In this document: positions 38,677 to 63,255 of the stretch, in pieces
Layout of the letters: every line of letters starts with the position of its first letter
Numbering within the stretch: the first letter of the stretch is position 1
Source: an uncultured Sulfurovum sp.
GTDB taxonomy: Bacteria; Campylobacterota; Campylobacteria; Campylobacterales; Sulfurovaceae
Length of the DNA: 64,000 nucleotides
Assembly: GCA_902727935.1 (NCBI GenBank)
Contig: CACVAX010000045.1
Coordinates: 1-64,000, forward strand
Direction of reading: 5' to 3'
Translations under genes and position numbers: made by a program
The notes under the pieces: model-generated
What the model was told of the DNA's origin: nothing
What the model saw: the letters and a program-made list of their open reading frames with translations, nothing else
Databases searched by the model: none

Positions 38677-38753
38677 TGGCGCGGTGGACGAGACTCGAAC
38701 TCGCGACCCCCTGCGTGACAGGCAGGTATTCTAACCAACTGAACTACCACCGC
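38677..38753 (-). tRNA. tRNA-Asp(GTC), copy 1
   Basis: The reverse complement folds as a 77-base tRNA: acceptor GCGGTGG/CCACCGC, D-arm TAGTTCAGTTGG, anticodon loop CTGTCAC (anticodon GTC), T-loop TTCGAGT, and an encoded CCA. It is the promoter-distal member of the array. Confidence 0.95.
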
Positions 38754-38769
38754 GCATATATTGTAAAAA

Positions 38770-38845
38770 TGGTGGTCGCTATAAGACTCGAACTTATGAC
38801 ATCTACCTTGTAAGGGTAGCGCTCTACCAACTGAGCTAAGCGACC
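38770..38845 (-). tRNA. tRNA-Val(TAC), copy 1
   Basis: A 76-base cloverleaf: acceptor GGTCGCT/AGCGACC, anticodon stem CTACC/GGTAG with loop CTTACAA (anticodon TAC), T-loop TTCGAGT, encoded CCA. Confidence 0.95.
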
Positions 38846-38879
38846 ATATACTAAAAAATTAACTTTAAGGACAAAACTT

Positions 38880-38955
38880 TGGCGACCCCTAAAGGATTTG
38901 AACCTTTGTTTTTGCGTTGAAAACACAATATCCTTGGCCACTAGATGAAAGGGTC
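38880..38955 (-). tRNA. tRNA-Glu(TTC)
   Basis: A 76-base cloverleaf: acceptor GACCCTT/AGGGGTC (one wobble), anticodon loop TTTTCAA (anticodon TTC), T-loop TTCAAAT, encoded CCA. It is the only unduplicated member of the array. Confidence 0.93.
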
Positions 38956-38974
38956 ATCTTGAAAACCTTAAACA

Positions 38975-39050
38975 TGGTGGTCGCTATAAGACTCGAACTT
39001 ATGACATCTACCTTGTAAGGGTAGCGCTCTACCAACTGAGCTAAGCGACC
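38975..39050 (-). tRNA. tRNA-Val(TAC), copy 2
   Basis: Identical across the tRNA to the copy at 38770-38845, including the encoded CCA; anticodon TAC. Confidence 0.95.
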
Positions 39051-39063
39051 AACTAAACATTAA

Positions 39064-39139
39064 TGGTGACCCTTCATGGATTCGAACCATGGGCCCACTC
39101 CTTAAAAGGGAGTTGCTCTACCAACTGAGCTAAAAGGTC
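39064..39139 (-). tRNA. tRNA-Lys(TTT), copy 1
   Basis: A 76-base cloverleaf: acceptor GACCTTT/AAGGGTC, anticodon stem ACTCC/GGAGT with loop CTTTTAA (anticodon TTT), T-loop TTCGAAT, encoded CCA. Confidence 0.95.
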
Positions 39140-39151
39140 ATCTATAAAAGG

Positions 39152-39228
39152 TGGCGCGGTGGACGAGACTCGAACTCGCGACCCCCTGCGTGACAGGCAG
39201 GTATTCTAACCAACTGAACTACCACCGC
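39152..39228 (-). tRNA. tRNA-Asp(GTC), copy 2
   Basis: Identical across the tRNA to the copy at 38677-38753; anticodon GTC, encoded CCA. Confidence 0.95.
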
Positions 39229-39245
39229 GCATATCTAAACATTAA

Positions 39246-39321
39246 TGGTGACCCTTCATGGATTCGAACCATGGGCCCACTCCTTAAAAGGGAGTTGCTC
39301 TACCAACTGAGCTAAAAGGTC
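39246..39321 (-). tRNA. tRNA-Lys(TTT), copy 2
   Basis: Identical across the tRNA to the copy at 39064-39139, and shares the flanking spacer CTAAACATTAA. It is the first tRNA after the promoter. Confidence 0.95.
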
Positions 39322-52798: not shown

Positions 52799-53698
52799 AT
52801 GAAGAAGCTTATAATATTTTTATTAATTGTTGAAAATTTGGTTTCAGCAGGAGTATCTGCTGGAACAGAAATAAAAAATGTGGCTTATTTACATTACAAA
52901 GTGGGTGCTTTTGATTTTAATACAACGAGTAACTTATTGGTTGATATTGTTGACCAAAAGTTAGACATGCAAATGAGTTGCCAAGAGAGTGATGTGGTCA
53001 TGGTAGGGGTGGGTGAAAAAAAACGTGCTTTGAGTTTTAGTTTAAGTAATACAGGTAATGGAATAGATACTTATGAATTTACACCCATAGAAGCTGATAG
53101 TAGAGACTTTACGGTAGAGAATGCAGCAGTTTATATTGACAATGGTGATGGTGTTTTCTCTGAATCAGAAGACAGTTTAGCAACCGAAATAAAAGTAGTT
53201 GCCGATGGAAATATTTCGCTTTTTTTGGTTAGTGATATTCCTAATAATGCAGTCAATCAATCAGCCAATGGGATTAAAGCCCTTTCTTCTATGCAAGGTT
53301 CACTCTCTTATGGAGAATCTAAAAAGCTAAATGATTTTTACGCAGTGGTTGCCATGAAAGAAGAGGCAAAATCTGATTTTTGTACCTATGGTGTCTCTCC
53401 TTTAGCCTTAGAGTTAGAGAAGAGTGCCACACTTTCGAGTGATAAACTCTATAAAGGTACAACCATTGAATATAAAATAGATGTCAAAGTGGTTGGTGTT
53501 GGAACAATTGAGAATGTGCTTGTTAAAGATAATGTTCCTACAGGAACAGTTTACATTGATGAGAGTTTAAAGTTAGATGGTGTTCTAGCAGGTGATTTTA
53601 ATGGTTCAGCCATCTTAGTCGCATTCAATAGCATTGTACAAGAAAATGAAAGTTCAGAGCCTCTGCACACCATTACCTTTGAAGTCAAGGTTCAGTAA
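52799..53698 (+). CDS. Secreted protein with C-terminal DUF11-like domain (surface gene 1)
   Basis: A 299-residue protein with a signal peptide (MKKLIIFLLIVENLVSA). Residues about 20-200 form a beta-rich region that is clearly paralogous to the 350-residue protein of the same cluster (shared AGTxIxN, VDxKxD, SFSLSNTxNxI and YIDNGDG-type segments). Residues 203-299 form a single DUF11-like Ig-fold domain (KGTTIEYKIDVKVVGVGTIE, DNVPTGTVY) that ends the chain at TFEVKVQ. Probably exported to the cell surface. A 13-bp stem-loop follows its stop. Confidence 0.75.
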   Translation: MKKLIIFLLIVENLVSAGVSAGTEIKNVAYLHYKVGAFDFNTTSNLLVDIVDQKLDMQMSCQESDVVMVGVGEKKRALSFSLSNTGNGIDTYEFTPIEADSRDFTVENAAVYIDNGDGVFSESEDSLATEIKVVADGNISLFLVSDIPNNAVNQSANGIKALSSMQGSLSYGESKKLNDFYAVVAMKEEAKSDFCTYGVSPLALELEKSATLSSDKLYKGTTIEYKIDVKVVGVGTIENVLVKDNVPTGTVYIDESLKLDGVLAGDFNGSAILVAFNSIVQENESSEPLHTITFEVKVQ

Positions 53699-53712
53699 GC
53701 AATAAAAATAGA

Positions 53713-53754
53713 GAGACCTCTGTAAGTATTTAATCAAATGTTTACAGAGGTCTC
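53713..53754 (+). other. 13-bp stem-loop between surface genes 1 and 2
   Basis: Arms GAGACCTCTGTAA (53713-53725) and TTACAGAGGTCTC (53742-53754) are perfectly complementary around a 16-base loop. No T-run follows on the plus strand, so it is more likely an mRNA-processing or stability element, or an attenuator, than a standard terminator. Confidence 0.6.
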
Positions 53755-53783
53755 CTCAAAAAACAAAAGATAAAGGATAGATA

Positions 53784-54254
53784 ATGAAAGTTTTATTAAG
53801 CACCGTAGTTTTAACAGTTTCTTTGATGAGTATGGTTCAAGCCAATGTGAGCATTAATGCCAGTTCTTACCAAAAAACAATAAAGTTAAATGAGAATGCT
53901 GAAGAAGTTATAGCATGGGTTCAAGCTCAAAAGGTTGTGCCTGGAACAATCATACGTTATGTGAACACTTTAGAAAACAGTGGTCAGCAATTGGCTACCA
54001 AATTGGTAATAGACAATCCTGTTCCAACACATATGGAATATATTGAAAACTCTGCTTTGTGCCAATCAGCATGTACTCTATCGTATTCAGTCGATGGTGG
54101 TAAAAGTTATAACAATCCAGAGGCACTTTTTGTGGGTGTCGGTGAAGAGAGACATCTCGCAAAAGCATCAGAATATACCAATATCAGATGGACAGTAGAA
54201 CGTTTAGGGGCAGTATCGCAAAGTTTGGTTGAGTATAAAGCTCAATTAAAATAA
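53784..54254 (+). CDS. Secreted single DUF11-like domain protein (surface gene 2)
   Basis: A 156-residue protein: signal peptide (MKVLLSTVVLTVSLMSMVQA), about 30 linking residues, then essentially one DUF11-like domain (about 52-156: VVPGTIIRYVNTLENSGQQL, DNPVPTHMEYIENSALCQSAC) ending LVEYKAQLK. It is the minimal member of the family in this locus. Two cysteines (93, 97) may pair. Ribosome binding site AAAGGA is good. Confidence 0.75.
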   Translation: MKVLLSTVVLTVSLMSMVQANVSINASSYQKTIKLNENAEEVIAWVQAQKVVPGTIIRYVNTLENSGQQLATKLVIDNPVPTHMEYIENSALCQSACTLSYSVDGGKSYNNPEALFVGVGEERHLAKASEYTNIRWTVERLGAVSQSLVEYKAQLK

Positions 54255-54282
54255 AAATTAAATTATATATCAAGGAATAATT

Positions 54283-55335
54283 ATGAAGAAAATATTAAGT
54301 ATGTTTGCCTCAATAGCACTCTGTAGTGTGGCTTTGAATGCAGCAGGAACAGCATCGGGAACAACGGTTTCCAATAGTGCTTCCCTCTCTTATAGCGTAG
54401 GAGGAGCAACACAACCCACGGTGAATACCCAAGCAGCAGCTACTTTTGTTGTGGATAAAAAAATTGACTTCTCCGTGGTACATGCTGATGGAGTTAAGCA
54501 TCTGGTAACGACACCTGGTGCAAGCAAAGTACAACGGTCATTTACTTTAGAGAACACAACGAATAGTATTCAGGATTTTACACTTTTAGCCACCAATTTA
54601 GATGCAAAAATTTATGATAGCAAAACTGATAATGCTGAAGTAAGCAATTTAGAGATAAGTATTGATGGTGGAACAACTTGGACAGCTGGTTCTGTGACAG
54701 TGGATGATTTGGCTGTAGATGGATCACAAGCGATATTAGTACGTGCTGATGTACCTAACACCAATGTAGATGGAAATGTTATGAACATTCAACTCGAAGC
54801 AACAGCCGTTCAAAATGGAACAGCAACAGCTGAAGTGGTGACAGGTGGAGCTGGTGGTATTGATAGAAAAGATGAAATTGATGTGGTTCTTGCAGAGGGT
54901 GCAGGAGTGACAGATTTTGATAATGCTCAATTTGATGGTAAATATGCTGCATGGGCAGGATATATAATTAATGCACCAACGCTAACTTTGGCTAAAAGTT
55001 CGTGTGTTTATAAAGATTTGGTGAGTGGGGTAAGTGCAAATGCAAAACGCATTCCAGGTTCAACGATTACCTATTTATTAGACATTGAAAATGGTGGAAG
55101 TATTGATGCTTCTGATATTAACATTACCGATACGCTTCCTTTGGAGTTAGACATGGATACGGTAACAGCCGTGAATACATTTGATAATCAAGCATCTTGT
55201 TCTTGTATTGGTGGGACAGCAGGTGGTGGAACAGCAGCGACTTTTTCTAAAAATGGACAAGAGCTAACCATATCAAGTTTAACAGCCTTAACGAAAAAAC
55301 ATAACTGTGTCACTTTTCAAATAGACATTCAATAA
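54283..55335 (+). CDS. Secreted protein with C-terminal four-Cys DUF11-like domain (surface gene 3)
   Basis: A 350-residue protein with a signal peptide (MKKILSMFASIALCSVALNA). The N-terminal 200 residues are a beta-sandwich-like region paralogous to surface gene 1 (SNSASLSYSVG, VVDKKIDFSV, FTLENTTNSIQDF, ISIDGGTTW). The C-terminal domain (about 235-350) has SCVYKDLVSG, RIPGSTITYLLDIENGG and TDTLPLELD, with cysteines at 241, 306, 308 and 342 and an end eight residues after the last Cys (CVTFQIDIQ). This Cys pattern is repeated in surface gene 5. A hairpin follows. Confidence 0.8.
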   Translation: MKKILSMFASIALCSVALNAAGTASGTTVSNSASLSYSVGGATQPTVNTQAAATFVVDKKIDFSVVHADGVKHLVTTPGASKVQRSFTLENTTNSIQDFTLLATNLDAKIYDSKTDNAEVSNLEISIDGGTTWTAGSVTVDDLAVDGSQAILVRADVPNTNVDGNVMNIQLEATAVQNGTATAEVVTGGAGGIDRKDEIDVVLAEGAGVTDFDNAQFDGKYAAWAGYIINAPTLTLAKSSCVYKDLVSGVSANAKRIPGSTITYLLDIENGGSIDASDINITDTLPLELDMDTVTAVNTFDNQASCSCIGGTAGGGTAATFSKNGQELTISSLTALTKKHNCVTFQIDIQ

Positions 55336-55341
55336 TATAAG

Positions 55342-55368
55342 GCATCATCAACCATCCATTGATGATGC
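55342..55368 (+). other. 10-bp stem-loop between surface gene 3 and the barrel gene
   Basis: Arms GCATCATCAA (55342-55351) and TTGATGATGC (55359-55368) with a 7-base loop. No T-run follows. Like the stem-loop after surface gene 1, it could set different expression of the small secreted proteins and the large barrel. Confidence 0.55.
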
Positions 55369-55405
55369 TTAATATACAAATAAAAAAAATGAAAGGAGAA
55401 CCAAA

Positions 55406-58400
55406 ATGCAAAAAATAATTAAATACTTTATATTAACCACACTGTTTCTCTTTTCCTCTTTTTTATCGGCATTAGAAGTGGGAGAGAGCATTACTAATAC
55501 GGCATCGGCAACCTATAGTATACATGGTGTGGATAAAAACATTTCTTCAAATACCTTAGCACATATCATCGAAGAGAGTGATGCTTCAATTACCTTTATG
55601 ACCTCTTCTCAAAATGGTACACAAACAGCTGTTTTAGGGATAAGCAGTTACCGTGATGCTAACGGGGTTTGGCGTGAAGGAGATGCGAGTAGTTTAGGTA
55701 ATGATACTCCATTGAGTTTAGAAGATACAGAGGTGTATGGGGTAGAAGATACGGTCATTATTAGTGTGACAGATGCTGATAGAAATGCGAACCGTTTGCT
55801 ACGAGAAGTTATTGAAGTGACCGTAACCACGAGTAATGGAGATACGGAAGTTTTAAGCCTTAGAGAAACCAGTGAAAACTCAGGAATTTTTGTGGCGTAT
55901 ATTGTGCTTTCTAGCCAAGTAGGAACTTCGTATGACAACCGTCTATATGTACAAAATGGCGACACTCTTGTGGCTAACTATGAGAACAGTAGTATCAATG
56001 TAAAAAGTGATACTGCTGTTGTGATGTTAGACCAAGATTTAAACATTTGGATTGAAAAACAGGTTAACAAAACAGCGTCATCGGTTGGGGAGCTTTTAGA
56101 ATATACACTTGTGGTGCATAATGATGAAGAATTTCCCGTTTCTAATTTAACCATACAAGATGCTTTGCCCCTTGGTGTTAAATATGAAAAAACAGTAGCC
56201 AATACCAATGGAGAGACATTTACTCCTACTTTTTCAGACGATGCTAAAACTGTATTTTTTGCCATAGATAAAATAGTAGCAGGTGAAAGCCTTGAAATAA
56301 AATTTATAGCCTCGGTAACAGCTGGGGTACAAAACAGACAAGTGGTGAACCAAGCATGGGTTACGCAAAACAATGGTTTTAAATCGAATGTTGCAACGGT
56401 AACCACCCTTATTAATGAAGAGTTGATGCGTAGTAAGGGAATTATTATGGGTCAAGTTTATGATGCAAAAGAAAAAGCTAAAGCAAGAGGTGTTGCTGGG
56501 GTAAGACTTTACCTTGAAAATGGACTCTATGTGGTGACCGATGAGGCTGGAAAATATCATTTTGATGGCATAGAAGCTGGAAATCATATTATTCAAGTAG
56601 ACAAAGCACTGTTGCCACAAGGCTACAAGATGGGGAAATGTGAAGAGAATGCTCGTAATGCAGGAAGTGACTTTTCTCAGTTTGTAAAAGTAGGACAAGG
56701 GGCTTTAAAACGGGTTAACTTTTGTGTGGAGCGTAATGGTGAGCTTGTTGAAACGAAAACAAAAGAAGCGTATGTGATTCCTACTAAAGTAGAGACCATG
56801 CCTACTTATGGTGTTAAAGATTTAGAACAAGCCGACAAAAGAGAGATTCTGTGGCCTCCTGTGGGTTATGTTCCTTTTATTCCTAGTACTAAGATTGCTG
56901 TTAAACATGCAAAAAATGAACGGATTGATATTTGCTTAAATGGACAGAGAGTTTCAAAAATGAACTACAGTACCAATGTGACTTCTAAAAAATCTAAGAA
57001 TGTTATTGATATTTATACAGGGGTTGATTTACTTGAACGAGGCAATATTATTAAAGTAGAATACTTTGACAAAGCCAATAAGCTTTTAGAGACACTTAGC
57101 CGAAAAGTGCATGTCTCCTCAGCTCCTGTACAAGTACGATACATGAAAGAGAATTCTTATACCGTTGCCGATGGGAAAAACTCACCTGTGATTGCTGTTA
57201 AGTTTTTAGATGATGCTGGACAACCGTTACGTGCAGGAATGACAGGAACATTTAGCATTGATGCACCTTATGCTTCACAAGAGTATTTGGAACAACTCAA
57301 AAAAAATCCTTTGGCATTAAGCAGTGCTCAAAACAGATATACAGTACATTCAGATGGTATTGCTTACATCAAACTTCAACCCACCACAGAGTCAGGAGAA
57401 GTGACTTTACATTTTCAACTTCAAGAGCGAGATGAGGTGATACGAGCATGGTTAAAGCCTGAACTGCGTGAATGGATTATGGTAGGATTTGCCGAGGGAA
57501 CAGTGGGTTACAATACGCTTAAGGGAAACAGAGAATCTTTAGGAGAAATTGGTGCTGAAGATAAAACCATTACCGAGGGTAGAGTCTCCTTTTTTGCCAA
57601 AGGAAAAGTAAAAGGCGACTGGCTTATGAGCATGGCGTATGACACAGGAAAAGATACCTCTCAAACAGAGTTTTTTGATGAGATTGACCCAAATGCTTAT
57701 TATACACTTTACAATGATAATTCACAACAAAACCAAGAAGCAGCGTCACGTGAAAAGCTTTATGTCAAACTTGAAAAAGAGCAGTTCAATATACTTTTTG
57801 GAGATTACAGTACCGATTTATCCTATACAGAACTTTCGGCTTATTCGCGTCGATTTACAGGGGTGAAGAGTGAGTATCATGGTGAGCATGTAGAAGCCAA
57901 AGCTTTTGTGAGCCATACGGAACAGTTGTTTATAAAAGATGAAATACGTGGTGATGGAACGTCTGGGTATTATTATTTAAAATCTAAAAATATGTTACAG
58001 TTTTCAGAACAAATTACCATTGAGGTACGTGACCGTTATCGAACAGAAGAGATTGTTTCGAGTACGAGTTTACAGCGTTTTAAAGATTATGAGATTGACT
58101 ATGCTTTAGGACGTTTGTATTTTAAAGAGCCAATTTACAGTACAGATGAAACTTTTAACCCACGATTTATTGTGGTGGATTATGAAGTCAATGGTGATGC
58201 TGGAAAATATTATACTTATGGTGGAAGAACAGCTATTAAAGTATTGGAGGACAAAGTAGAGATTGGGGCAACTTATATTTCTGAAGATTCTTCAAAAAAG
58301 AGTTCCGAACTGATGGGAGCAGATGCACGAGTAGAAATAGCCCAAAATACCACGGTAAAAGCAGAGTATGCGAAAACTAAAACCGTGGAAGAGGCAAGTT

Positions 58401-59872
58401 CAAGCCAAGGTGAAGCCAAATTAGCAGCAATAGAACATGTGAGTAATGGGGTTTATGTTAGGGCTTATTTTCGTGAACAGGAGTCTGCTTTTGGTTTGGG
58501 GCAACTTAGTGACAGTTTGGGTGCAACACGTAAAGTAGGCTTGGATGTATCGCAACAATTGGATAACCGTCAAACAAACAGACTCTCTCTCTACAGAGAC
58601 AGTGACCTTTTGAATAAGACAGATGCCGATGTTATGGACTTTAGAACAGAGTTTGCCAGTTTAAATTGGAATGTTTATGGAGGTTATCGTTACTCTAAAG
58701 TAAGCACTGATGAAGAGATGGCACAGCAGTTACTTTTAGGGGGGTCGTATGGATTTTTTGACCAACGCTTAAAACTTTCAGCACTTAGAGAACAAACGCT
58801 GTCGGATACCGAGAGTGAACTTTTTCCTACTAAGACAATGGTAGGTTTAGACTATGCTTTAAATGCTTCTATGGACTTTTTTTCAGCATATGAATGGACA
58901 GATAACTTAGAGCAGGGACGTGCAGGAGTGAGGGTTAGACCTTGGTCTGGAATGACCGTTGAAAACACCACGCTTTCTGAGTATGAAAATGACAACCAAA
59001 ATGTTTACAATACTTTAGGAGGTCTACAAACTCTTCAAGTGAGTGAGAAAGTTGGTGTAAATGTGGGTTATGAAAAAGGTCAAGTGGTTCAACAATCGGT
59101 TGCGTCATTACTCTTAGATGACAATATTACAGAGATGGATAAAGCATTTTCGGCTTACCGTTTAGGGGTAAATTATAATGGAGAGGATTATTCTGCAACA
59201 CTTAATGGTGAGATTAGAAAGGGAAGCAGTGTTGACAAAGTAAATCTCTCGTCAGCTGTTTATACCCAAACGTCTGATTCTTTGGCCGTGGCTTTAAGTG
59301 CAACCCATAATAAAGAGACAGGTAAAAACCGTAATCAAACAGATAGTAATGCACGTTTTTCTTTAGCTTATAGACCCGAAGAAGATGGGATGATTGTGCT
59401 TGAAAAGTTGGATTTTATCTCTTCAAAAAGTTCTGAAGCTCAAAATGACTTTGTAACTGAAAAGATGATAAACAATTTAAATGTCAACCTAACACCCACC
59501 ACAAAAAGTGAAGTAGCATTACAACATGGACTTAAATATGTGGCTGATACCATTAATGACTATGAATACAAAGGTTTTACCCAACTTTTAGGAATAGATG
59601 CCCGATATGACATGACGAAAACATGGGAACTTGGCGTTCAAGGTTCGCTTCTTTATGCACAAAGTGCCAACAACATGGACTATGGTTTTGGACTCTATTC
59701 AGGACATAACTTGTTTGACAACATGGTTTTAACTTTAGGATATAACTGGAAAGGTTTTGAAGAGAGAGATTTTTCACTGCAAACGTATCGAATGGAAGGG
59801 GCATACTTTAGATTTAACATGAAGTTTGACCAAGAGAGTTTAAAAGATACGGTGAGGTTAATGTCATGGTAA
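55406..59872 (+). CDS. Large outer-membrane beta-barrel protein with DUF11 and SdrB-like domains (surface gene 4)
   Basis: A 1488-residue protein. Order of parts: signal peptide (about 1-22); a short SxTNTASATYSxxG segment shared with surface genes 1 and 3; a beta region (60-205); a DUF11 domain (about 212-335, VGELLEYTLVVHNDEEFPVS, QDALPLGVKYE); an SdrB/carboxypeptidase-regulatory domain (344-440, GVRLYLENGLYVVTDEAGKY); a Big-like region (560-690); then about 780 residues of alternating aromatic/polar strands. The KDYEIDYALGRLYFKEPI segment is typical of large Gram-negative barrel proteins with DUF11 domains. The end AYFRFNMKFD...MSW suits an outer-membrane barrel. It overlaps the next gene by seven bases. 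Confidence 0.75.
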   Translation: MQKIIKYFILTTLFLFSSFLSALEVGESITNTASATYSIHGVDKNISSNTLAHIIEESDASITFMTSSQNGTQTAVLGISSYRDANGVWREGDASSLGNDTPLSLEDTEVYGVEDTVIISVTDADRNANRLLREVIEVTVTTSNGDTEVLSLRETSENSGIFVAYIVLSSQVGTSYDNRLYVQNGDTLVANYENSSINVKSDTAVVMLDQDLNIWIEKQVNKTASSVGELLEYTLVVHNDEEFPVSNLTIQDALPLGVKYEKTVANTNGETFTPTFSDDAKTVFFAIDKIVAGESLEIKFIASVTAGVQNRQVVNQAWVTQNNGFKSNVATVTTLINEELMRSKGIIMGQVYDAKEKAKARGVAGVRLYLENGLYVVTDEAGKYHFDGIEAGNHIIQVDKALLPQGYKMGKCEENARNAGSDFSQFVKVGQGALKRVNFCVERNGELVETKTKEAYVIPTKVETMPTYGVKDLEQADKREILWPPVGYVPFIPSTKIAVKHAKNERIDICLNGQRVSKMNYSTNVTSKKSKNVIDIYTGVDLLERGNIIKVEYFDKANKLLETLSRKVHVSSAPVQVRYMKENSYTVADGKNSPVIAVKFLDDAGQPLRAGMTGTFSIDAPYASQEYLEQLKKNPLALSSAQNRYTVHSDGIAYIKLQPTTESGEVTLHFQLQERDEVIRAWLKPELREWIMVGFAEGTVGYNTLKGNRESLGEIGAEDKTITEGRVSFFAKGKVKGDWLMSMAYDTGKDTSQTEFFDEIDPNAYYTLYNDNSQQNQEAASREKLYVKLEKEQFNILFGDYSTDLSYTELSAYSRRFTGVKSEYHGEHVEAKAFVSHTEQLFIKDEIRGDGTSGYYYLKSKNMLQFSEQITIEVRDRYRTEEIVSSTSLQRFKDYEIDYALGRLYFKEPIYSTDETFNPRFIVVDYEVNGDAGKYYTYGGRTAIKVLEDKVEIGATYISEDSSKKSSELMGADARVEIAQNTTVKAEYAKTKTVEEASSSQGEAKLAAIEHVSNGVYVRAYFREQESAFGLGQLSDSLGATRKVGLDVSQQLDNRQTNRLSLYRDSDLLNKTDADVMDFRTEFASLNWNVYGGYRYSKVSTDEEMAQQLLLGGSYGFFDQRLKLSALREQTLSDTESELFPTKTMVGLDYALNASMDFFSAYEWTDNLEQGRAGVRVRPWSGMTVENTTLSEYENDNQNVYNTLGGLQTLQVSEKVGVNVGYEKGQVVQQSVASLLLDDNITEMDKAFSAYRLGVNYNGEDYSATLNGEIRKGSSVDKVNLSSAVYTQTSDSLAVALSATHNKETGKNRNQTDSNARFSLAYRPEEDGMIVLEKLDFISSKSSEAQNDFVTEKMINNLNVNLTPTTKSEVALQHGLKYVADTINDYEYKGFTQLLGIDARYDMTKTWELGVQGSLLYAQSANNMDYGFGLYSGHNLFDNMVLTLGYNWKGFEERDFSLQTYRMEGAYFRFNMKFDQESLKDTVRLMSW

Positions 59873-61251
59873 GGGGTTTATGGAACTTTTTTACCATAAT
59901 GATTTTATTCTCTTTGAGCTTAGAAGCTTCATGGTGGAATAATGATTGGAAACATAGAGTAGCCATTACGATTAATAATGCTGTTACTCATCAAACAGGT
60001 AAGCTTAATATTGACTTTTCAACTCTAGGGTTGCTGGGTGATTTGGATGAAAATTCAATTAGGGTTGTGAAGGAAGATGGCACACTACTTGCACAACAAG
60101 AATTTACTGATATTCTCTACAACGGTGTAACTGATAGTTTAAATAATAATCGAGGTGAAGTAAAATTTATTATTGAAGAGAGTGGAGAATTGACATATTA
60201 TATTTATTATGACAGCATAGAAAATGGTTCTAAAGGAGTACTTTCTTCTACTTATGTGATTAATGGAAATTTTGAACACTCCTCCACTTCAACAGCAACC
60301 AATTGGTCAATAGGTCAAAGTAGCATTGGTACAAATAATCCTAATAATGAAGTGCATCCATTAGCTAGTGAGGGGACAACTTTTTCTATTGATGGCCAGA
60401 ATATTAATAATACTGCTTATCAAGGAAAGGCTTTTTTTCTTCATGGTTATCGAGATAGAGCAGAGTCTGGGAATATGAGTGAAGTAGTATATGTTGAAAA
60501 AACATTTAATGTTCCCTCAACAGCTTATGGAAATTTAACCTACTGGTTTAGAATTCAAGCTTTTGATGATATTAATTATGATTATGTACAGGTAAAAGTA
60601 AATGGAAATGTTATAAATCATACTAATCTAAATATCTCTAATAGTAATTTATCAGTTACAAGTACGAAGTATGGACGAAAAAGTAGTTATGGTGGATATC
60701 AAGATATTGGTTGGACAAAAGCAACTTTAAATTTATTAGCGTATGCAGGAACAACGATTACGGTACGTATTTCTCATCATTTTTTTAGTGATAATAATTA
60801 TAAAAGTTGGCAACTTATTGATGATTTTGAATGGAGTTTGAACAGTGCAGTTACACTTGGTGTGCAAGAGAATCAAGAAAATATAAAATTAGAGATTACA
60901 AAATTTTCATGTGTGCTATCAGACTTGGTCAATGGAACACTCAATCCCAAAAGAATTCCAGGAGCAACCATACGTTATGCACTTGAAGTAACCAATGCAG
61001 GAAGTGCTACAGCTTCCAATGTTTTACTAAGTGACACTTTAAGTGCTGAGTTTGATGTAACAACCATTCAAAAATTGCAGGTTCAAAGTGGAGCATGTGA
61101 CTGTTTAGGGATGAGTTCTAGCAGTAATAATGGGGCAAATGGAACAGCCGATGGGGTTCATCCTATTGTTTTAGATTTTGGAAATCTATTGGGTGGAAGT
61201 GTTGCTACACCTACTAAAGAGTGTGGTTATTTTGAAGTTGAATTAAAATAA
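59866..61251 (+). CDS. Secreted protein with DUF2341-like and four-Cys DUF11-like domains (surface gene 5)
   Basis: A 461-residue protein. After a signal peptide (about 1-21) comes a DUF2341-like domain (SWWNNDWKHRVAITI, then LTYYIYYDS), a carbohydrate-binding-like beta-sandwich region (about 130-325) and a terminal DUF11-like domain (342-461). The last domain has SCVLSDLVNG, RIPGATIRYALEVTNAG and SDTLSAEFD with cysteines at 349, 411, 413 and 453 and ends eight residues later (CGYFEVELK), copying surface gene 3. The ATG overlaps the barrel gene end by seven bases, so translation is coupled. The next gene begins directly after its stop. Confidence 0.75.
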   Translation: MVRGLWNFFTIMILFSLSLEASWWNNDWKHRVAITINNAVTHQTGKLNIDFSTLGLLGDLDENSIRVVKEDGTLLAQQEFTDILYNGVTDSLNNNRGEVKFIIEESGELTYYIYYDSIENGSKGVLSSTYVINGNFEHSSTSTATNWSIGQSSIGTNNPNNEVHPLASEGTTFSIDGQNINNTAYQGKAFFLHGYRDRAESGNMSEVVYVEKTFNVPSTAYGNLTYWFRIQAFDDINYDYVQVKVNGNVINHTNLNISNSNLSVTSTKYGRKSSYGGYQDIGWTKATLNLLAYAGTTITVRISHHFFSDNNYKSWQLIDDFEWSLNSAVTLGVQENQENIKLEITKFSCVLSDLVNGTLNPKRIPGATIRYALEVTNAGSATASNVLLSDTLSAEFDVTTIQKLQVQSGACDCLGMSSSSNNGANGTADGVHPIVLDFGNLLGGSVATPTKECGYFEVELK

Positions 61252-63255
61252 ATGATAAAAAAAATAATTTTACTTTTTATTGCTCTGTCATTAGTTCTTT
61301 TTGCTAAAGCCATTACCCCTAATTTAGAATATCAAAAAATATCTTCAGTTGGCTATGCTTGGACACATGTTAATTTACTAAATAGTTATAGTGACCCTAT
61401 TGTGGTTTGTTCTAATGTACTTCCTTCTAAAGCTCATCGTGAAGCAGTGGTACGTGTAAATAATATAACCTCAATGGGTTTTGATGTTAAAATTCAAGCT
61501 CCTAATGATGTAGATCCAAATTATTCAACCGATATCTATTGTATTGTTTCTGATGAGGGATCCTATACGATACCTATTAAATATGAAGCACATAAAGTGA
61601 TTTCAAGAGGAACAAGTGGTTCTACTTCTCCTGTAAATTGGAATGCTTCAAATACTGAAAATGTTAGTGGTTCTATTTTTCAGACCTATGATAAACCAGC
61701 TGTTTTAGGACAGGTAATGAGTTATAACGATAATCGTTTTTCAACTTTTTGGTCTTTTGATTGTGAATCACGTTCGAATCGTCCATTTCAAAGTAATATG
61801 GCAGATGGTATTTGTGTGGGAAAACATGTAGGACAAATAGGAGAAACACGTAATGATGAGACCTTGGGTTATATTGTCGCTGAAGCTGGAGTTTATGAGT
61901 TAGAAGACTTTTCGATGGCAGTTGATTATGGTGCAGATAGTGTTGCAGGAGTAGGAAATAATCCTCCTTATTCTTACAATTTAGATAAAAGCTATACCCA
62001 TGGTGTGGTAACAAAGGAGGCAGAAGATGGTGGAAATGGAGGATGGTCTGTATTGTATGGGGCTTCTCCTTTTGGTACAAGTTTGGATTTAGCCATAGAT
62101 GAAGAGACCATTGCAGGAGATAAGACACGTACGCATACGACTGAAAATGTTGCTTATTGGGTGTTTCTTGAAGAGCAAGTGAACCTAGCTGAGATAAAAA
62201 TTAATGAGGTGCTTTATAAGCAAACGGTTACAGGAATGGCAAATAATGAGTTTATTGAGTTTTTTGTTACAAAATCTGGTGATTTAAAAAACTATCTTTT
62301 TACTGACCAAGATGAAAAATCTCATCACTATCGTTTTCCAAAACATAGTGTTAATACTGGAGATTATGTGGTTTTACATATTGGTGTGGGAACAGACTAT
62401 GTTGATGCTAAGGTACATCATTTTTATCAAAATTCATCTCAATTTCTTAATGATGATGGGGATGATATTTTGTTGTTAAAACCAAGTAACACTGATGTAA
62501 CAGTGGTTGATGGGGTGGGTGTCAATGCTGTACCTTTTGATTATATGGCATATAATAATGCAGGGGACAGCATACCCATCAGTCAAAATGGTATTACAAC
62601 CTTTTGGAATTCAAGTTATGAATCAGAGTTGAAAAATGCAGACAAAGGACATTCTTTCTCTTTAGTACCCAATGCGATAGATAGCGATACTTCAGCCTGT
62701 TGGGAGCTTACAACCAGTGGTAATGCCAGTGATAATGGATGTAGTGGATATGTTAAAAGTACCGATGCCAATAGCGATACTTCATTAACGTACAGTATGG
62801 GTAGAAGTAACACGGATGTCCCAAATATAAAATTGGAAAAAACATCGTTAACCATTTATGACCCTGTTAACATAGAAAGCAATCCAAAGGCAATTCCAGG
62901 TGCTTTGGTAGCCTATACCATTTCTGCTCGAAATGAAGGTTTTGGTAGTACCGATGCCAATGGTATTGGCATAGCCGATAGTGTTCCTGCCAATATGAAA
63001 CTCTGTGTGAGTAGTCTTAGTAGATGTACAGAGGTAGGTTTTGTGGAGGGAGGAGTAAGTTCAACTTTGAGTTTGGGAAGTTTGGAATATTCTAATAATA
63101 ATGGTGCAAGTTTTAATTATATGCCAATGGCAGATGCTGAAGGTTTTGATAGGGATGTTACGAATGTAAGGATTAAACTCAATGGAAGTTTTCAAGAGAG
63201 TGATGGGATGAATCATCCTAGCTTTTCTTTGGTGTTGAAGATGGGGATTATATAG
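61252..63255 (+). CDS. Secreted protein with H-type-lectin-like, lamin-tail and DUF11-like domains (surface gene 6)
   Basis: A 667-residue protein with a signal peptide (IILLFIALSLVLFAKA). Residues about 25-110 look like an H-type-lectin-like sandwich (DPIVVCSNVLPSK, VRVNNITSMGFDVKIQ), possibly repeated at about 145-300. A lamin-tail domain follows (about 305-415: EIKINEVLYKQ, NEFIEFF, YVVLHIGVG, FLNDDGDDILLLKP). The C-terminal DUF11-like domain (about 525-667) contains KAIPGALVAYTISARNEGFG and ADSVPANMKLC. Its ATG directly follows the previous stop codon. The array suggests binding to surfaces or glycans; function unproven. Confidence 0.7.
   Translation: MIKKIILLFIALSLVLFAKAITPNLEYQKISSVGYAWTHVNLLNSYSDPIVVCSNVLPSKAHREAVVRVNNITSMGFDVKIQAPNDVDPNYSTDIYCIVSDEGSYTIPIKYEAHKVISRGTSGSTSPVNWNASNTENVSGSIFQTYDKPAVLGQVMSYNDNRFSTFWSFDCESRSNRPFQSNMADGICVGKHVGQIGETRNDETLGYIVAEAGVYELEDFSMAVDYGADSVAGVGNNPPYSYNLDKSYTHGVVTKEAEDGGNGGWSVLYGASPFGTSLDLAIDEETIAGDKTRTHTTENVAYWVFLEEQVNLAEIKINEVLYKQTVTGMANNEFIEFFVTKSGDLKNYLFTDQDEKSHHYRFPKHSVNTGDYVVLHIGVGTDYVDAKVHHFYQNSSQFLNDDGDDILLLKPSNTDVTVVDGVGVNAVPFDYMAYNNAGDSIPISQNGITTFWNSSYESELKNADKGHSFSLVPNAIDSDTSACWELTTSGNASDNGCSGYVKSTDANSDTSLTYSMGRSNTDVPNIKLEKTSLTIYDPVNIESNPKAIPGALVAYTISARNEGFGSTDANGIGIADSVPANMKLCVSSLSRCTEVGFVEGGVSSTLSLGSLEYSNNNGASFNYMPMADAEGFDRDVTNVRIKLNGSFQESDGMNHPSFSLVLKMGII

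Follow-up and report, generated by a model that had tools for sequence, protein, structure and literature searches.

The DUF11 domain, now renamed CLIPPER, has been described from PDB entry 9IFR as a nine-strand CnaA-like sandwich carrying an isopeptide bond between Lys715 and Asn806, with Asp748 as the catalytic residue (PMC12617251). The last strand, b9, contains Cys818-821 and is therefore preceded by Asn806, and the bond is known to form in the recombinant, unsplit domain (PMC12617251). This triad of Lys, Asp and Asn is not universal across the DUF11/CLIPPER family. Here, an operon of six genes (p1 to p6) is described from an uncultured Sulfurovum sp. (assembly GCA_902727935.1, contig CACVAX010000045.1, positions 1 to 64,000, the whole of which is termed the window), in which the same domain appears to be divided between different proteins. 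The C-terminal domain of each secreted subunit is probably completed in trans by the N-terminus of another, while a covalent Lys-Asn weld between the two is a proposition on which we are evenly divided. No account of a split DUF11 system was found in the open-access literature searched (excluding bioRxiv) concerning DUF11 together with donor strands, or split and intermolecular isopeptides.

The first-pass annotation of the window, made from the sequence alone, held that the five secreted proteins of the operon (p1, p2, p3, p5 and p6) each end in a DUF11-like domain, and profile searches agree: both PF01345 and TIGR01451 match their C-terminal parts. The PF01345 matches of these terminal copies (E 0.006 to 3e-5 on full proteins) cover the first part of the profile only, and TIGR01451 scores above its cut-off in four of the proteins and just below it in p6. 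A hydrophobic closing strand had been reported for four chains (FEVKVQ, YKAQLK, FQIDIQ and FEVELK); these motifs are as described, and the count rises to five of five with p6, where FSLVLK is followed by four extra residues (MGII). The cysteine plan said to be shared by p3 and p5 is exact (positions in Table 1), and a profile built from the window's own domains found the terminal placement kept in about 20 relatives. Across the assembly, which is 84.6% complete, seven DUF11 matches were recorded at E<=0.1, six of them in the operon and a weak one elsewhere.

What distinguishes the terminal copies is where they stop. A profile of the complete DUF11 of p4 relatives retrieved 9IFR, aligning Lys and the Asn of the VNQA motif with Lys715 and Asn806, and placing the Asp of the DxxP motif at residue 749, counted along the aligned chain and one residue off the published Asp748. 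The single internal DUF11 of p4 (residues 215-325, E 3e-9) is complete and has all three of Lys, Asp and Asn, a set that none of the terminal domains has; those of p1, p3, p5 and p6 keep the Lys and the DxxP Asp, and the terminal domains end 0-5 residues past the strand just ahead of the one with the Asn. The last two strands are missing from them, including the one bearing Asn. The best PDB fold match of a modelled terminal domain, hereafter acceptor, was 9IFR (prob 1.00, E 3e-3), and no significant match came from PDB sequence searches with p3, p4, the p4 of Acinetobacter and a p2 from Thermus. Occurrence at internal positions, named in the first-pass annotation as an argument against a chain-terminal module, is in a formal sense observed in p4 and in a Thermus tip protein, but the internal copies there are entire or almost entire, in contrast to the truncated copies at the chain ends.

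The missing part has a counterpart at the other end of the chains. The mature N-termini of p1 (GTEIKNVAYLHYKV...TSNLLVDIV), p3 (GTTVSNSASLSYSV...) and p4 (GESITNTASATYSI...SSNTLAHII) follow a pattern, GTxIxNxA...Y...SN...V, which is that of the tail of the complete p4 DUF11 (VVNQAWVTQ...KSNVATV). Of the proteins in these loci, a regular expression for the donor segments picks out 39 from the operons and leaves all 170 others unmatched. When acceptors and donors were joined in silico, the match to the Pfam DUF11 profile was extended to position 108-109, and a full-length match was obtained only after joining. The p1 acceptor scored 24.1 bits alone (profile 6-62), 36.4 with the p4 donor (6-109) and 30.7 with its own, against 23.7 with a control N-terminus; the p3 acceptor rose from 28.1 (9-78) to 34.5 with the p4 donor (9-109), against 26.7 for the control, and joining took the p5 acceptor from 28.6 to 32.6. 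In the alignment of the p1 acceptor with the p4 donor, the donor Asn sits in the column of the isopeptide Asn. A short hidden Markov model (HMM) of the tail, run against all N-termini, gave matches enriched in donors, each of them weak.

The two reactive positions of the acceptor are kept or lost together. Of 73 terminal domains, 49 combine the Lys with an acid (47 Asp, 2 Glu) and 24, namely all 20 of p2 and four of p1, have neither; none has one residue without the other. On the donor side, every p1 donor that matches the motif has the Asn.

The same organisation recurs well beyond the window. When 249 sampled genomes of the order were searched with the barrel as query, 18 were found to contain the operon, and it is also present in named relatives labelled Sulfurovum or Campylobacteraceae; in the operon loci the terminal domain stands at the chain end. 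A p2 profile recovered the same 18 genomes and one more, p2 lying approximately 1.4-3.2 kb from the barrel gene in 17 of the 18 and on a different contig in the remaining one. The additional genome (G180, 83% complete) encodes an orphan p2-like protein (L073, 594-1148) on a 3.7-kb contig without a barrel, and because of this single case the co-occurrence falls just short of perfect. Together with the conserved terminal position, it shows that the arrangement goes beyond chance. Six plasmid-borne relatives, from Novosphingobium, Acinetobacter haemolyticus, Pacificitalea, Thermus brockianus, Deinococcus radiodurans and D. aquaticus, likewise comprise donor-only, donor-plus-acceptor and acceptor-only proteins, which brings Pseudomonadota and Deinococcota under the same scheme. 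All donors read in them have Asn and all acceptors read, other than p2, have Lys and Asp; p2-type proteins were found in four of the six, some genes being broken or partly called. Two separate genes encode the donor-only DUF11/SdrD portion and the barrel-like portion in Thermus and Deinococcus. Acceptor-only relatives of the p5/p6 type carry H-type lectin, nidogen, PA14, Reelin/CBM, MAM and LTD domains.

A mechanism can be proposed from these features. In it, polarity, individual roles, strand insertion and covalent bonding are inferred from what was observed: the architecture, the complementary motifs, the conservation and the co-variation. The C-terminus of each secreted subunit would be a CLIPPER sandwich left incomplete after the strands leading up to the Asn strand, with the reactive Lys and catalytic Asp retained in the acceptors of p1, p3, p5 and p6, while the missing last hairpin and its reactive Asn would be supplied by the mature N-terminus of p1, p3 or p4. 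Cleavage of the signal peptide would free this donor hairpin, whose insertion into a partner's acceptor would complete the fold; given all three of Lys, Asp and Asn, a Lys-Asn isopeptide bond should then link the subunits. As a donor-only protein, p4 would serve as membrane anchor and offer the first donor, and p1 and p3, with both donor and acceptor, would form the shaft. The acceptor-only p5 and p6, with their binding-type N-terminal domains, would be distal tip adhesins, a role for which the absence of a donor and the variety of binding-type domains are as expected. For p2, whose acceptor lacks Lys and Asp, a non-covalent role may be envisaged, either as a cap or as a chaperone-like placeholder guarding the donor; that the reactive pair is always missing from a protein so rarely lost suggests that p2 binds the donor reversibly. 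Of the two functions that the first-pass annotation had suggested for the terminal domain, polymerisation into a fibre by strand exchange thus gains ground at the sequence level, the terminal domains being without the Asn strands that the N-termini of p1, p3 and p4 possess. Recognition by the barrel protein survives only insofar as the p4 N-terminus bears a donor, no sign of recognition by its internal DUF11 or its barrel having emerged.

Several results weigh against this model. The 73 acceptors are kin, and therefore the co-variation of Lys and acid reflects few independent events, at least two joint losses (p2 and one p1 clade) rather than 24. In the group of genomes designated f6, the donor position is Ser or Thr in p3 of six loci and the p4 of several genomes has no clear Asn motif; the covalent bond therefore cannot be universal, though in the lineage of the window it is to be expected. 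In a stricter test, with a home-made HMM in a leave-one-genome-out design, the score changed by +0.45 bits with donors, by -0.45 with controls and by -0.10 when the donors were shuffled, a small though consistent difference. An AlphaFold2 (AF2) model of a read-through fusion left the donor undocked at a predicted local distance difference test score (pLDDT) of approximately 34-48, the acceptor itself being well folded (mostly 82-91). This fusion consisted of the p3 acceptor of locus L034, the intergenic linker with residues in place of its stop codons, and the signal peptide and donor of p4, and with its shallow alignment and artificial linker it represents a non-confirmation rather than a clean refutation. 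The donor segment could also belong solely to the domain that follows it. Finally, the AF2 model of the p4 barrel part had a mean pLDDT of 38.8, too low for a fold search.

In a different account, the terminal domain is a finished, compact Ig-like tag for secretion or sorting read by p4, and the N-terminal segments are the first strands of their own domains, resembling the DUF11 tail by descent. Its constant position at the chain end beside p4 and the high pLDDT with which AF2 folds the acceptor alone are in keeping with it. It fails to account, however, for the joint retention of Lys and catalytic Asp in the absence of a partner Asn, for the conservation of the donor Asn across phyla, or for the in-register completion of the Pfam profile, and we regard it as unlikely. 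The sorting signal entertained in the first-pass annotation is likewise not needed, given that neither sortase nor exosortase was found in the genome and that a tag for sorting alone would have no use for the conserved Lys/Asp pair. Rather less likely again is closure in cis, whereby the N-terminal segment completes the C-terminal domain of its own chain as a circularly permuted DUF11, yielding closed monomers and no fibre: p1 and p3 do hold both parts in one chain, and TasA is self-complemented as a monomer before exchange (PMC9674648), but the donor of p4 and the acceptors of p2, p5 and p6 would be left unpaired, and this across relatives from three phyla.

A fibre built by donor-strand exchange without any isopeptide between subunits is a variant whose probability overlaps with that of complementation in trans, and taken by itself it is a minor but appreciable possibility. 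The p2 acceptors without Lys and Asp, and the p3 and p4 donors that have no clear Asn motif in several f6 genomes, speak for it; on the other side stand the retention of Lys, acid and Asn together in the window's lineage, in Pseudomonadota and in Deinococcota, and the bond formation seen in the unsplit recombinant domain (PMC12617251). It is highly improbable, lastly, that these are ordinary single-chain fibrillar adhesins which by chance terminate in a degenerate DUF11 repeat. Such repeats are widespread as stalk modules, and a second barrel family is indeed accompanied by giant single-chain DUF11/SdrD/OmpA proteins, but the point of truncation is kept across phyla and several gene families, and the catalytic pair is retained.

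Complementation in trans would also dispense with known assembly machinery. In the assembly, at its 84.6% completeness, no match was found to usher (PF00577), PapD-type chaperone (PF00345), sortase (PF04203) or exosortase; p4 itself has no usher match. No LPXTG-type signal was found on the operon proteins, whose chains end on a strand without a transmembrane tail, and none of them matches the TasA/camelysin Pfam families, the weak SipW-type match of p2 reaching 15.5 bits against a cut-off of 60. The C-terminal part of p4 is rich in strands, with an alternating-pattern fraction of 0.159 (0.072 +/- 0.021 in shuffled sequences) and a C-terminal Trp, as expected of an anchor, the outer-membrane barrel itself being a prediction.

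The six genes are arranged head to tail on the plus strand (Table 1), with intergenic gaps from p1 to p6 of 85, 28, 70, -7 and 0 nt. The operon is flanked by what we take, from reading the translations, to be a holB-like gene on one side and a folP-like gene on the other.

Table 1. Operon p1-p6 and its predicted features, in window coordinates (donor, N-terminal segment proposed to complete another subunit; acceptor, truncated terminal domain)
Feature	Position	Strand	Description
p1	52799..53698	+	299 aa, secreted; N-terminal donor, Ig-like middle, C-terminal acceptor; putative shaft-type subunit
p1 donor segment	52862..52954	+	GTEIKNVAYLHYKV...TSNLLVDIV; Asn27; few residues from likely mature N-terminus
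p1 acceptor	53393..53695	+	Truncated DUF11; Lys208, Asp244; closes on FEVKVQ
p2	53784..54254	+	156 aa; signal peptide and stand-alone acceptor without Lys/Asp
p3	54283..55335	+	350 aa; donor, middle, acceptor; probable major shaft subunit
p3 donor segment	54358..54468	+	GTTVSNSASLSYSV...; Asn31
p3 acceptor	54958..55332	+	Lys238, Asp283; Cys241/306/308/342; closes on FQIDIQ
RNA hairpin, p3-p4 gap	55340..55370	+	-16.8 kcal/mol, z -5.5
p4	55406..59872	+	1488 aa; N-terminal donor, complete DUF11, SdrD_B-like domain, predicted outer-membrane barrel
p4 donor segment	55481..55573	+	GESITNTASATYSIHGVDKNISSNTLAHII; Asn31
p4 internal complete DUF11	56030..56431	+	Lys218, Asp252, Asn315 (VNQA)
p4 predicted beta-barrel part	57503..59869	+	Strands of alternating hydrophobicity, C-terminal Trp
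p5	59866..61251	+	461 aa; binding-type N-terminal part and acceptor, no donor; proposed tip adhesin
p5 acceptor	60871..61248	+	Lys346, Asp390; Cys349/411/413/453; closes on FEVELK
p6	61252..63255	+	667 aa; lamin-tail-like domain and acceptor, no donor; proposed tip adhesin
p6 acceptor	62827..63252	+	Lys530, Asp576; closes on FSLVLKMGII

The strong RNA hairpin between p3 and p4 is without a long U run, and in four close relatives (L034, L035, L036 and L037) this gap is also occupied by hairpins, unrelated in sequence. This agrees with the shaft genes upstream reaching a higher level, and the hairpin is perhaps an mRNA-stabilising or attenuating element placed 3' of the major subunit gene.

Some further observations were made on related proteins and on the window. 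In f6 genomes (L057-L062), a second barrel family of approximately 1170 aa is encoded directly after giant single-chain SdrD/SpaA/DUF11-type proteins with a C-terminal OmpA-like part (e.g. L058, 4388-8107 and 8107-11604), and these pairs are likely an unsplit relative of the operon system. A secreted protein of 2160 aa with a weak DUF11 match (L063, 7732-14214, on contig C6 of genome G000) ends in SIPAMGQLAAFIMLVLTLLISIFFFRKE, which looks like an IPTL/exosortase-type sorting tail, the exosortase search of the genome being negative. Elsewhere in the window, seven tRNA genes (Asp, Val, Glu, Val, Lys, Asp, Lys), with species repeated, lie on the minus strand at 38677-39321.

Considered more broadly, the operon may represent a widespread and so far unrecognised class of self-welding pili in diderm bacteria, based on a naturally split isopeptide domain, built without sortase, chaperone or usher, and with p2 as a dedicated non-reactive acceptor that would occupy the reactive donor before the subunits are joined; we see this generalisation as having an even chance of being right. 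If true, it would mean covalent pili independent of sortase and of the chaperone-usher pathway in Campylobacterota, Pseudomonadota and Deinococcota, a role for many proteins annotated merely as "DUF11 domain-containing", and a supply of evolved tag/catcher pairs for protein engineering.

The closest described structure, CLIPPER 9IFR, belongs to the same family, and its Lys and Asn align to the complete p4 copy and hence to the acceptor Lys and the donor Asn; it is, however, a complete stalk domain of a single chain with an intramolecular bond (PMC12617251), whereas the domain of the operon is divided between subunits. Like the assembly proposed here, the archaeal thread Saci_0406 combines donor-strand complementation with a proposed inter-subunit isopeptide without a known sortase, but its bond joins Asn57 to the N-terminal amine two subunits away, and it has no DUF11, barrel or Lys/Asp/Asn triad (PMC9715654). 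No thread structure appeared among the 50 PDB fold matches listed for the acceptor, and no direct comparison with Saci_0406 was made. TasA/TapA fibres resemble the proposed assembly in that an N-terminal donor strand completes the next subunit, and TapA has been suggested as donor of the first strand, comparably to p4, but they are Gram-positive and of camelysin type, with neither an isopeptide triad nor an outer-membrane anchor (PMC9674648). Chaperone-usher pili offer a further parallel, seen at the level of sequence, in their incomplete C-terminal Ig-like domain, N-terminal donor extension and donorless two-domain tip adhesin; the operon differs in a genome devoid of usher and PapD matches, in the CLIPPER fold, in a donor probably of two strands instead of one, in the predicted covalent link and in an anchor that supplies a donor. 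With sortase-built pili it would have in common covalent inter-subunit isopeptide links and isopeptide domains, although those pili require a sortase and an LPXTG-type signal, neither of which was found for the operon. SpyTag/SpyCatcher and Isopeptag are engineered splits of isopeptide domains in which a terminal strand reacts in trans. Unlike such designed tag/catcher pairs (PMC5487036), the split proposed here would be natural and would serve fibre assembly. Donor-strand fibres and isopeptide-locked adhesins are each already known, and the new element would be a donor strand which itself carries half of a spontaneous bond.

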